Below are positions 6,070 through 56,831 of a stretch of 64,000 nt of DNA, piece by piece. The notes below the pieces were generated by a model that saw nothing but the letters and a program-made list of their open reading frames with translations, did no database searches and was not told the DNA's origin. Numbering within the stretch: the first letter of the stretch is position 1; every line of letters starts with the position of its first letter. A program made the position numbers and the translations under genes. This DNA comes from Cellulomonas sp. Leaf334 (GTDB lineage Bacteria; Actinomycetota; Actinomycetes; Actinomycetales; Cellulomonadaceae), in the NCBI RefSeq assembly GCF_001424195.1, contig NZ_LMOO01000001.1:2152812-2216811 (forward strand), read 5' to 3'.

Positions 6070-6762
6070 CTACCCACTGATCGGCTCGGCAGTGACGACG
6101 ACGTTGTCCGTATAGTGCCCGATGTCGCGGCGGAACGTGCCGCCGCAGGTCACGAGCACGAGCCGCGGCGCGCCGGACCGGTCGAACCACTGGTCCACGG
6201 GCGCCCCCTCCTTGGCCATCTTCTCGACGGTGACGACCCGGTACTGGTGGGTGCTGCCGTCGGCGGCCGTGATCGTCACCGCAGCCCCGACGCCGACGTC
6301 GCGGAGCTTCGCGAACTGGCCGATCCCCGTCTGGACGCTGTCGACGTGCGCCGCGATGACGGTCGCACCGGCGGGGTCGGCGGGCGCGGGGCCGAACCGG
6401 TACCAGCCGGCGCGGTCGGCGTCCTCGGGGATCTCCATCTCGCCGTCGTCGCGCACCCCGACAGGGTCGACGGCCATGTCGATGCCGACGTCCGGCACGA
6501 CGAGCTGCACGGGTGGCGGCGTGGCCGCGACGGCGGCGCCGAGCGTGGCGTCGACGACCGGGACCGAGGGGAGCACGGCGGTCGGTCGCGGCGTCGCCGT
6601 GGCGGACGGCGACGCCGCGACCGCCGGTCCGGAGGAGGGTTCCGGGCCGGTGCACGCGGTCAGCAGGGCCGTCGTCGTGCCGAGTGCGGCGACGGTCGCG
6701 AGCACGCGTGCCGAGACCCGGGAGCGCGCGGACGCACTCCCGGGTCGCGACGTGGTGGTCAT
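6070..6762 (-). CDS. Class F sortase
   Basis: 230 residues from ATG 6762. An N-terminal helix ends in a lipobox-like LLTACTG (around residues 25-31), then a Pro/Thr/Ala linker, then the sortase beta-barrel beginning [18 protein letters not shown]. Catalytic residues are visible: His in VIAAHVDS, Cys in LVLVTCGG and Arg in TFRRDIGHY. Actinobacterial class F sortases attach surface proteins to the wall or process them outside the membrane. It lies nine bases after the DUF4397 gene, whose product is the obvious candidate substrate, although that protein shows no LPXTG. Confidence 0.9.
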
Positions 6763-6770
6763 GAGGACAG

Positions 6771-7601
6771 TCAGCTCCGCTGGCTCGCGGCGCGGCGGGC
6801 GAACCCGGCCCCGACCAGACCGGCGACGGCCAGACCGGCGATCGCGAAGGTCCACGCGGAGGAGCCGTTCTCGGAGACGAGACCGACCTCGCCGGCGTTC
6901 ACGCCGGACGGGTTGCTGTGCAGGCCGGTGATGGTCTGCGTGGCGAGCGCGAGCGTGGCAGGCGACGCGGTCGCGCTGCCCCACGCGTACACGATCGTGC
7001 TGGTGCCCTCGGCGACCGGCACGTCGGCCGGGCCGAGCAGCGCGGGCGTCGTGGTCCCGGTGGCGGTGACGCTGGCCGAGACGGTGCCGGCGGGGAGGTC
7101 GAGCACCTCCTCGTCGGGGTTCGTGAGGTTGGTGATCACGGGCGTGGTGCCTGCGAGGACGTCGACCCCGGGAGCGGCTGCGACGTGCCGGACGGTGAGC
7201 CTGCCCTCGCCCGCGGCCGTGGCCGAGATGTCGTTGGTGAACAGGGTGGCGGTCGGGGCGCCCGCGGCGTCCAGGTGGGCGACGGCCGTGTAGTTCATGC
7301 CGGCCTCGAGCGGCAGGTCGACGGGGCCGATCGCGGGGGCGCTCGCGTCGGCGGCGTCGGCGGCCGTGATGGCGACCGTGTACGTGCCGGCGGGCAGGTC
7401 CAGCGGTCCGGCGAGCGTCCCGGGCGTGAAGTCGTCGAGCGTCCGCTCGCCGTTGACCCAGACGTCGACGGTGAGGCCGGGGACGCCGTGCAGGACGGAG
7501 AGCTTGGCGGGGTCGGCCACGGCCGCGGACGCGGGAACCGTGGCGAGGGTGACGAGGGCGAGGGTCCCGGCTGCGATGCCGGACAGGAGTCGTGCGCGCA
7601 T
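6771..7601 (-). CDS. Secreted DUF4397 surface protein
   Basis: 276 residues with a Sec signal peptide ending near ASAAVADP, two tandem DUF4397 beta-domains (around [18 protein letters not shown] and [17 protein letters not shown]), and a C-terminal hydrophobic helix followed by [10 protein letters not shown]. The end looks like a wall-sorting signal, but the residues before the helix read [14 protein letters not shown] with no LPXTG or LAXTG. First gene of the operon with a class F sortase, sigma and anti-sigma, so it is probably the main structural product of that circuit. Confidence 0.88.
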
Positions 7602-54407: not shown

Positions 54408-55436
54408 ATGACGTCGCTGAAGCAGGAGACCGCTGGAGCGGGAACGTGGCTCCTCCGCGGCCTGCTCGCGCTCGCGGCCCTCGTGCTGCTCGTCCTCGTG
54501 CAGGCCGTCCTCGCCGCCCCGCCCGCGCGTGCCGACGACTCGCCGCCGCGCACCGACGTCGTCGCCGAGCTGCTGTCGCCGGTGGTCGACGCGGTGGTCG
54601 CTCCGGTGGAGCCGGTCGTGTCCGGGGTGGTCGCGCCGGTGGAGCCCCTCGTGTCCGGCGTCGTCGCGCCGGTGGTGTTCGCGGTGCTCGCGCCCGTGAC
54701 GCCGGTGGTGTCCGCGGTGGCTGCGCCGGTGGCTCCCGTCGTCGAGGCGGTCGCCGCACCCGTCGCGCCCGTGGTCGAAGGCGTCGTCGCGCCGGTGGTT
54801 CCCGTCGTCGCACCCGTCGTCGACCTCGCCTCCCCGGTGCTCGACAGCGCGGCCCCGGTCGTCTCCGCCGTCGCACCCGTCGTCGACGCGCTCGACCCCG
54901 TCGTCGCACCGCTCGGCCCCGTGCTGGCGCCCCTCGGCGGGGCGCTCGCTCCGGTGCTCGACGCGCTGGGACCGCTCGTCGGGGTGCTGCAGCCCGTGGT
55001 CGACGTCCTGGAGCCGGTCGTCGAGCCCGTCACCGGGATCCTCCTGCCCGTGCCTGGGACCAGCGACCCGCACCCGGCCCTGGACGTCGCGGACACGGTC
55101 GTGCCGGCGTCCGCCACGGCCGCCGTCCGCGTGCCGGACCTCGGCGCCGCCGTCGTGCGCCACGTGCCGCAGGCGGGCGTGCCGGCTGTCGACCACCGGG
55201 CGCCCGTCCCCGTCCCCGCCCCCTCCCAGCCTGCGCCGACCGACCCCGCGCCGGGCGTTCCCGCCGTTCCCGTACCCCCGGGCTCCGCCACCAACGGTGG
55301 CCGCACCGTCGTGGACGCGGCCGTCGTCGGCGGCCCCGCCCACGCCGCAGCACCCCTGGGCCGATGCCTGCTCGGTGTAGTCCCCGTGACGTCCGCCGCC
55401 CCGCCCGCCGCCGAGGTCCCCAGCTCCCCTGCCTGA
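54408..55436 (+). CDS. Secreted protein of 11- and 7-residue APV repeats
   Basis: 342 residues. A signal-like helix at 14-42 ends ARADD. Residues 57-213 (54576-55046) are repeats on the pattern APVxPVVxxV plus one residue, in units of 11 mixed with 7 or 8, e.g. APVEPVVSGVV, APVAPVVEAVA, APVVPVV. Only V, A, P, L, G with scattered D/E occur. The spacing would give an amphipathic rod or beta-stack. The rest is Pro/Ala-rich and disordered. It is 75 bases before the chaplin-like gene on the same strand. No family recognised. Confidence 0.8.
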   Translation: MTSLKQETAGAGTWLLRGLLALAALVLLVLVQAVLAAPPARADDSPPRTDVVAELLSPVVDAVVAPVEPVVSGVVAPVEPLVSGVVAPVVFAVLAPVTPVVSAVAAPVAPVVEAVAAPVAPVVEGVVAPVVPVVAPVVDLASPVLDSAAPVVSAVAPVVDALDPVVAPLGPVLAPLGGALAPVLDALGPLVGVLQPVVDVLEPVVEPVTGILLPVPGTSDPHPALDVADTVVPASATAAVRVPDLGAAVVRHVPQAGVPAVDHRAPVPVPAPSQPAPTDPAPGVPAVPVPPGSATNGGRTVVDAAVVGGPAHAAAPLGRCLLGVVPVTSAAPPAAEVPSSPA

Positions 55437-55511: not shown

Positions 55512-56831
55512 ATGCACACCTACGTCCGGCGAGCGCTGCAGACAGCACTCGTGACAGGCGGCCTCGTCGCCGCCGGGGCCTCGATGGCCCACGCAGAAGA
55601 ACCCGCTCACGACCACGCCGTCGTGGCCGTCGACCTCCGCCTCGGCAGCACCGAGGGCATCCTCGACCTGGCACCCGACCAGGTCGTGCACGCACCCGTC
55701 CACGTCCCGGTCGACGTGTCGGGGGTCGCGCTCGCGGTCGGCGGGGACAGCCTCGTCCGGTCCGCGCCCGCGGCCGATGCGGCTCCCGCGGCTCCGGCTC
55801 CGGCGGCTCCGGCCCCCGACCGCGCCGCTCTCGTGGAGGCGCCGATCAGCGTCCCCGTGACCGTGTCGGGGGTCGCCGTCGGCGTCCTCGGTGACGCGGC
55901 CGTGGTCGGGGGCGGTGGTGCCTCCGGCGGGACGGCGGCACCCGCGACGGCGGACGACGCGGTCGTGGCGGCGCCCGTCACGGTGCCGGTGGACGTGTCG
56001 GGGGTCGCCGTCGGCATCCTCGGTGACGCGGCCGTCGTTCGGCCGGCGTCCGGGGCGTCCGGTGGTGCGGCGGTGGGGAACAGCCTGGTGGCTGCTCCGG
56101 TCGTGGTGCCTGTGGACGTGTCCGGGGTCGCCCTCGGGGTGCTCGGGGACGCGGCTGTGGTCGGGTCGTCGGGGTCGTCGTCGTCCGGAGGAGCGTCCGT
56201 CGGGGATGCGCTGGTGGCGGCTCCCGTGACGGTTCCCGTGGACGTGTCCGGGGTCGCGCTGGGGGTGCTCGGGGACGCGATCGTCACCGGCGGATCCGGT
56301 TCGTCCGGGGGCTCGTCCGGGGGTGACGCGCCCGGTCGTTCCGACGGTGCGCTCGTCGCGGTGCCGGTGACCGCTCCGGTCACCGTCACGGACGTCGCCG
56401 TCGGCGTCGTCGGCGAGGCGGTCGTGACGCCGGTGAGGACGACGCCCGGCACGACGCCGGGCACGACGCCCGGCACGACGCCGGGCACCTCGCCCGGCTC
56501 GACGCCTGGTTCGTCGGTCGGTCGGACGCCGGGCGGGTCGCCTGGTACGGGGCCGGCGGTCGGGGTCGTCGGTGCCGGTGTCGTGGGTGCGTCGGTGGTG
56601 TCCGCCGACGGAACCGTGCTCGGCGCGGGCGCGACGACGGCGGCGGGCGGTGCGGGGCTCGCGGACACGGGCTGGACGCCGTGGGCCGCGTTCGCCGGGC
56701 TGTTCCTGGTCGCGCTGGGCGTGACGTTGCGCCGGACGGCGACCACGCGTCGGTCGACGACGAGCCCGTTCACGCACCCGGCGCTCCTGGACCGCGTGCC
56801 GACCCAGCGGGGGGAGACACAGGCCCGGTGA
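55512..56831 (+). CDS. Cysteine-free chaplin-like surface protein with LADTG sorting signal
   Basis: 439 residues; AGGAGGAG upstream of ATG. Signal peptide ends AHAEE. Six repeats of about 26 residues (57-83, 107-132, 150-176, 191-218, 233-258, 279-306) on the theme APVTVPVDVSGVAVGVLGDA, close to the Streptomyces chaplin motif PVxxPVNVCGNxVxVxG but with Ser in place of Cys. Gly/Ser linkers separate them; then a (TPGT)n stalk, LADTG (383-387), a membrane helix and RRTATTRR. The ending fits a class E sortase substrate, though 25 residues follow the basic patch. Likely wall-linked and surface-active. Confidence 0.82.
   Translation: MHTYVRRALQTALVTGGLVAAGASMAHAEEPAHDHAVVAVDLRLGSTEGILDLAPDQVVHAPVHVPVDVSGVALAVGGDSLVRSAPAADAAPAAPAPAAPAPDRAALVEAPISVPVTVSGVAVGVLGDAAVVGGGGASGGTAAPATADDAVVAAPVTVPVDVSGVAVGILGDAAVVRPASGASGGAAVGNSLVAAPVVVPVDVSGVALGVLGDAAVVGSSGSSSSGGASVGDALVAAPVTVPVDVSGVALGVLGDAIVTGGSGSSGGSSGGDAPGRSDGALVAVPVTAPVTVTDVAVGVVGEAVVTPVRTTPGTTPGTTPGTTPGTSPGSTPGSSVGRTPGGSPGTGPAVGVVGAGVVGASVVSADGTVLGAGATTAAGGAGLADTGWTPWAAFAGLFLVALGVTLRRTATTRRSTTSPFTHPALLDRVPTQRGETQAR
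56436..56515 (+). repeat. 12-bp tandem repeat coding the TPGT stalk
   Basis: Units such as ACGACGCCCGGC and ACGACGCCGGGC follow one another at least four times, then decay into TCGCCCGGCTCGACGCCTGG. They encode (TPGT)n in the chaplin-like protein. Such runs vary in copy number by slippage. Confidence 0.75.

Follow-up and report, generated by a model that had tools for sequence, protein, structure and literature searches.

The window analysed here, the whole stretch of 64,000 nucleotides from Cellulomonas sp. Leaf334, holds at 55512..56831 a gene that an initial annotation had described as encoding a cysteine-free chaplin-like protein linked to the cell wall. Chaplins are water-repellent proteins that coat the hyphae of Streptomyces and have been studied for aerial growth; the host of the protein described here, a non-filamentous soil bacterium, is not known for aerial growth. 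The locus raises the questions of whether the product is truly akin to chaplins, how it would be held at the cell surface, and what it would do there together with the product of the gene upstream.

The chaplin-like gene and its sorting signal

The ORF check returned an ATG-started frame of 439 aa exactly at 55512..56831, with an AGGAGG ribosome-binding site just 5' of the start, and the six repeats and the LADTG motif claimed for it were borne out. The parts of the gene are as follows.

55512..56831 (+), chaplin-like protein of 439 aa that has a wall-sorting signal and lacks cysteine
55512..55595 (+), signal peptide MHTYVRRALQTALVTGGLVAAGASMAHA, better conserved in the family alignments than any other block, with a putative cleavage site
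55689..55772 (+), chaplin-like repeat 1, residues 60-87
55836..55919 (+), chaplin-like repeat 2, residues 109-136
55968..56051 (+), chaplin-like repeat 3, residues 153-180
56091..56174 (+), chaplin-like repeat 4, residues 194-221
56217..56300 (+), chaplin-like repeat 5, residues 236-263
56358..56441 (+), chaplin-like repeat 6, residues 283-310, with Thr at the Cys position
56439..56506 (+), TTPG-type linker repeat with a 12-bp unit, perhaps a wall-spanning stretch
56658..56672 (+), LADTG sorting motif, residues 383-387
56679..56759 (+), predicted membrane helix, residues 390-416, with basic R407-R408 inside (AF2 and alignment)

All six repeats follow the type APVTVPVDVSGVALGVLGDA; they begin at residues 60, 109, 153, 194, 236 and 283, and a 126-bp tandem array represents the DNA of the middle repeats. 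The replacement of the conserved Cys by Ser had been reported for all repeats; it holds for five of them, but the sixth carries Thr. Comparison with Cellulomonas terrae gave a dN of 0.100 and a dS of 0.273, values that show purifying selection on the gene.

The C-terminal LAXTG motif, membrane helix and basic residues of long chaplins are all present, in the order that had been proposed. The 52 residues that follow LADTG are many compared with the 25-37 seen in 17 of 20 relatives, these 20 being the ones in which an LAxTG-like motif was detected near the C-terminal end. According to the available text of PMC5148588, LAXTG is recognised by class E sortases, and the sortase family search of the own genome yielded two genes. 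One of them is the class E sortase that the initial annotation had expected elsewhere in the genome (NF033747, 238.7 bits, cut-off 160); its best solved relative is 5utt, it matches SrtE1 of S. coelicolor (5cuw, E=1.9e-26), and it would be the enzyme that anchors the chaplin-like protein to the wall. The second sortase lies in the window at 6073-6984 (-) and has a lipobox-like N-terminus (LLTACTG) and a class-F-like domain; since the class F match stays below its cut-off (117 vs 166 bits), it was not taken as the anchoring enzyme. Another locus of the own genome (L006, G000:C5:487106-487516) matches the C-terminal part of the chaplin-like family weakly (E=0.004) and is perhaps a further sortase substrate.

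Similarity to chaplins, cysteine pairs and predicted repeat fold

In agreement with the assignment made initially, the Pfam chaplin model PF03777 scored 27 bits on the protein against a cut-off of 21 (E=4e-6, four stretches). The margin of 6 bits over the gathering cut-off, the shortness of the repeats and the biased composition could also reflect convergence, i.e. a Val/Pro/Gly-rich composition that merely resembles that of chaplins, and in whole-genome mode PF03777 gave no match over the own genome at E<=0.001; as the E-value of that mode counts per genome and over six frames, the direct Pfam score, the family alignment and a home-made HMM were relied on. This HMM, built from 27 chaplin domains of Streptomyces-like genomes (presumably Streptomyces), gave the protein 18.9 bits and placed all six repeats, whereas the best residue shuffle reached 7.6 bits (2000 shuffles, 1996 scored), the best dipeptide shuffle 2.8 bits (500 shuffles) and the top one among 346 other ORFs of the window 8.0 bits. 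With none of the 2500 shuffles near the real score, compositional convergence was rejected and the profile scores support a chaplin likeness that goes beyond composition; convergence is thus regarded as highly improbable, and the cysteine pairs described below argue further against it.

A protein search returned 24 relatives, several of them Cellulomonas proteins named by NCBI 'chaplin family protein', 'chaplin domain-containing protein' or 'DUF320'; a sequence comparison with the PDB gave nothing up to E=10. Among the genomes sampled, PF03777 matched 35 of 396 at the order level and 96 of 394 at the class level, and the chaplin-like family was found in 30 of 81 same-genus genomes, three of these matches being repeat-less (G025, G036, G042) and two weak or fragmentary (G046, G071). 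In addition, 40 named contig loci matched the family, several of which belong to the same genomes as the same-genus set; they come from Cellulomonas, Oerskovia, Pseudactinotalea, Cellulosimicrobium, Isoptericola, Luteimicrobium, Blastococcus, Actinomadura, Catellatospora and one Micrococcales MAG. Given these same-genus matches and the cysteine-free LAxTG relatives in other families of the order, the protein is not peculiar to this organism: it had been placed correctly in kind, yet it is part of an already annotated family.

Three sets of loci were evaluated. From the 35 order-level genomes with a match, 32 loci were fetched (G073 and G030, both of the same genus, and G810, with its match at the contig start, were left out beforehand), and 29 remained after L224, at a contig edge, and L218 and L227 had been dropped; the latter two had no signal peptide or repeats, look like chance matches and were rejected as family loci. 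From the 96 class-level genomes with a match, 30 were chosen that belong neither to the Streptomyces-like family f26 nor to the order, with f24 included in part; 27 regions were fetched (G089, G095 and G144 lacked coordinates), and the exclusion of L246 and L249, which had no start, left 25, one locus per genome. A start was located in all but 10 of the 40 named loci, leaving 30.

In canonical long chaplins, each domain has two cysteines and, according to the available part of PMC13251363, three GN motifs lie 12-13 residues apart. The protein of the window has no cysteine in its 439 aa and no such set of spaced GN motifs; at the turns of its repeats, SG or TD and GD or GE stand in place of GN. 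The claim that the repeats closely follow the chaplin pattern is thereby borne out by the profile match but not by the cysteine pair, the spaced GN motifs or the number of repeats, which is six and not two. The protein is not a canonical chaplin, and the profile and motif evidence supports describing it as chaplin-like and equipped with a wall-sorting signal.

Pattern matches in the relatives and the window protein gave 143 repeats, of which 132 have no cysteine in the hairpin part, 11 have two and none has one; 13 of 15 successive cysteine pairs in this pattern-found repeat set are spaced 13-14 residues. The cysteines of these repeats are kept or lost in pairs. Cysteine-free and cysteine-paired repeats occur mixed within one protein in Pseudactinotalea (L018), Cellulosimicrobium (L024) and Oerskovia (L013), with the pair retained by the last repeat in each, a picture to be expected if chaplin repeats had lost their disulfide. 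No cysteine was found after residue 28 in 26 of the 29 order-level loci (two of the 29 are cut short), in 18 of the 30 named loci and in none of the 25 class-level loci.

The hydropathy of the first strand of the repeat alternates, with Val at positions 3, 5, 7 and 9 (+3.8 to +4.2) and Pro, Thr or Asp between. In support of the chaplin-like reading, AF2 predicted beta-hairpins for the repeats, at low confidence (mean pLDDT 53.5 for the whole model): in repeats 2 to 5 an 11-residue strand leads through a short turn into one of 4 residues, and repeats 1 and 6 form similar, more broken hairpins. Foldseek gave no match to solved structures at E<=0.001.

The number of repeats ranges from 0 to 12 among the relatives. 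In Cellulomonas humilata (L015, 6001-6279), L072 and L074 the chaplin repeats are gone and the signal peptide runs straight into the sorting signal or hydrophobic end, and in two Isoptericola loci (L032 and L038, from 6001) acidic repeats of the type DGVVDDVLEDQG stand between the family signal peptide and LAATG in place of the chaplin repeats. Such variation, the loss of cysteines and GN motifs, and the long Ser/Gly/Pro linkers would suit an ordinary wall-anchored repeat adhesin or stalk of chaplin descent that is soluble and monomeric and forms neither coat nor amyloid. The repeats of the window protein have nevertheless kept the alternating hydrophobic pattern and the match to the chaplin profile, and we consider such a soluble stalk unlikely, though the strongest competitor of the coat-forming protein proposed below.

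The upstream partner gene and conservation of the pair

The gene that ends 75 bp upstream of the chaplin-like gene had been overlooked in the initial annotation; referred to here as the partner, it has the following parts.

54408..55436 (+), partner, a repeat protein of 342 aa rich in Pro and Val, bearing a signal peptide and a conserved tail at the C-terminus
54578..54822 (+), 33-bp (11-residue) APVxPVV repeats (Tandem Repeats Finder)
55413..55433 (+), conserved C-terminal tail EVPSSPA

A Pro-rich spacer separates the APVxPVV repeats from the tail, and comparison with C. terrae (dN 0.121, dS 0.416) indicates purifying selection. No Pfam or NCBIfam model matched any of nine partner proteins over its cut-off. 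The family pAdhesive_17 (PF20609) was rejected, its match to two partners lying far below the cut-off. The precomputed accession PF27499 of the distant partner-like match P0025 was absent from a direct Pfam scan of that protein, and some matches of the partner search look compositional (e.g., P0028, P0054 and P0059). AF2 gave low-confidence helices (pLDDT 53.7), which are unlikely in view of the many prolines. The promoter and terminator scan detected neither a sigma-70 site nor an intergenic terminator between the pair, a result of little weight in an actinobacterium of high GC content.

The tails read EVPxSPA, DIPHTPA or DVPVFPA in Cellulomonas relatives; mostly TDxSPD or TDxTPD (some after LPSSPxxx), DPGSSPD or PGSRPD at the order level; and DPSFSPD, DPSFAPD or EPSFAPD in the class-level group and Blastococcus (L041). 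We read the tails of all groups as one tail family. As the far groups have no more in common than tail, signal peptide and position, which are also mainly what the class-level partners share, homology of the partners between them is likely. A second partner-like type with the tail RPGARPD or RPGARPA occurs in the genus (L097, L101, L102); in L102 it is followed by the gene for a different secreted protein, which has EAPISLGGLSIGL repeats.

Under a broad rule, by which the partner is an ORF of at least 120 codons that ends in [STRAF]P[DAG] and stops within 330 bp upstream, it was present directly upstream in all 29 evaluable order-level loci, which represent three families, in 25 of the 30 named loci and in 11 of the 25 chosen class-level loci; the background of such endings was 26 of 1496 other same-strand ORFs. 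The strict tail pattern [DE][VILY]P.[STFA]P[AGDS], searched in 3668 ORFs of 75 loci, gave 56 matches in 56 loci (several loci share one genome), and all 56 are followed 74-96 bp downstream by a gene start with a family-type signal peptide. Among the 81 same-genus genomes, 30 match the chaplin-like family and 33 the partner: 28 have both, two the chaplin-like gene alone (G046, G071), five the partner alone (G003 and G079, both weak; G035, a fragment; G048 and G068) and 46 neither (Fisher p=1.9e-14, kinship ignored). Owing to the kinship of the loci, some of which share a genome, this p value and the 56 matches overstate independence.

Two of the five named loci that failed the broad rule lie at contig edges: L026 is the far half of a split gene, and the genome of L016 has a partner C-terminus at a contig end. 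The other three (L025, L036, L043; Actinomadura and Catellatospora) encode cysteine-bearing chaplins, and L025 has an ORF ending in PRHTPD farther upstream. In the 10 named loci without a located start, the tail was seen upstream in five (L015, L017, L030, L039, L044) and not in the other five (L035, L037, L040, L045, L046), all from Catellatospora. The 14 class-level loci in which the rule found no partner (L228-L238, L243-L245) all have an LPxTG or LAxTG motif. One class-level family (L239-L242, L246-L248, L250-L254) has cysteine-rich multi-repeat chaplins without LPxTG or LAxTG, and in all 12 of its loci an upstream gene ends in DPSFSPD or EPSFAPD (11 by the broad rule and L246 by reading of the tail).

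From Streptomyces-like genomes, 30 loci were taken with 1500-base flanks, one per genome out of many per genome. The chaplin ORF was located in 28 of these loci, and among the upstream ORFs listed for them there was no [STRAF]P[DAG] ending. On both strands together, three of 407 ORFs end in [STR]P[DAG] and five in [STRAF]P[DAG]; four of the five lie on the strand opposite to the chaplin, and the fifth (L118, tail RPERPA), on the strand of the chaplin and before the matched short chaplin, is not partner-like.

The upstream gene might be a mere neighbour, kept in place by conserved gene order and standing outside the function. This would accord with the lack of a recognised counterpart beside the Streptomyces-like chaplin loci, with G048 and G068, where a partner-like gene (tail RPGARPD or RPGARPA) was present and no chaplin-like gene was seen in the short downstream stretch, and with the loci in which the chaplin repeats are lost. 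Against it stand the unbroken occurrence in the order-level loci across three families and the joint distribution within the genus, and we hold the mere-neighbour reading to be improbable. The partner is intact upstream of the repeat-less L015, L072 and L074 and retained in both Isoptericola loci, so it may serve the anchored surface protein or the locus as such, not the chaplin repeats.

Proposed function and relation to known systems

The reading preferred, with somewhat better than even confidence, is that the two genes form one surface unit, most likely a hydrophobic, beta-rich wall coat or adhesin. The chaplin-derived protein would be exported by Sec and joined at LADTG to peptidoglycan by the class E sortase, with the PT/PG-rich stalk displaying the repeats beyond the wall. 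The six amphipathic beta-hairpin repeats would be cysteine-free versions of the strand-turn-strand core of chaplins and could associate side by side through beta structure, within and between molecules, into a hydrophobic and possibly amyloid-like coat, which would be used for attachment and for contact with other cells or with surfaces, and not for aerial growth. The partner would be exported separately and is probably a helper or co-assembling subunit, its conserved C-terminal tail being the putative recognition part.

A wider proposal, to which we give slightly less than an even chance, is that this two-gene system is widespread in non-filamentous actinobacteria. It would consist of a sortase-E-anchored, disulfide-free chaplin-repeat protein and a secreted Pro/Val-rich partner whose tail (EVPxSPA; elsewhere LPSSPxxxTDxSPD, DPGSSPD or DPSFSPD) recognises or nucleates the assembly; on this view, the chaplins found in filamentous relatives would represent a single branch within an older, general adhesion or coat system, and aerial growth would be a later use. 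A cysteine-free, many-repeat form with a wall-sorting signal in non-filamentous relatives, accompanied by a similar upstream gene in all evaluable order-level loci, allows a test of whether adhesion or coat formation was the original role of chaplins. The disulfide and the GN motifs would be revealed as dispensable chaplin features, and the partner is a candidate for the kind of helper protein to be sought beside a functional amyloid.

Parts of this proposal have precedents. Chaplin-like genes were noted in 2013 in Arthrobacter chlorophenolicus, which does not sporulate, and the same source already raised the idea that attachment preceded aerial growth (PMC4255298, available text). With the long chaplins ChpA-C the window protein shares the signal peptide, the chaplin-type beta repeats, LAXTG with a class E sortase and the hydrophobic composition; it differs from them in its six repeats against two, in the missing cysteine pair and spaced GN motifs, and in the upstream partner gene, which was not recognised at the Streptomyces-like loci examined. 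Chaplin domains without cysteines are described, in the accessible portions of these sources, for ChpE (PMC5618241) and the C-terminal domain of ChpB (PMC13251363), but both proteins are from Streptomyces and ChpE is a short chaplin; the cysteines of ChpH matter for development in Streptomyces (PMC5618241, same portion). The direct relatives are the Cellulomonas proteins of the 'chaplin family', 'chaplin domain-containing' or 'DUF320' type, with 38-73% identity in the aligned part and the same layout where complete; they are known by annotation names only, and no study of them was found in the mostly non-subscription literature searched. That literature also gave no description of the partner or the gene pair. 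The conserved two-gene unit is the feature most worthy of attention, and the pair points to an unrecognised surface system.

CwpA and CwpB of Actinoplanes missouriensis are hydrophobic, class E sortase-anchored proteins outside Streptomyces, as the window protein would be; unlike the window protein, they have no chaplin domains according to their authors (PMC13251363, in the part available). The partner resembles, by analogy only, the rodlins RdlA and RdlB, secreted surface proteins of Streptomyces that act beside chaplins (PMC5618241, in the part available).
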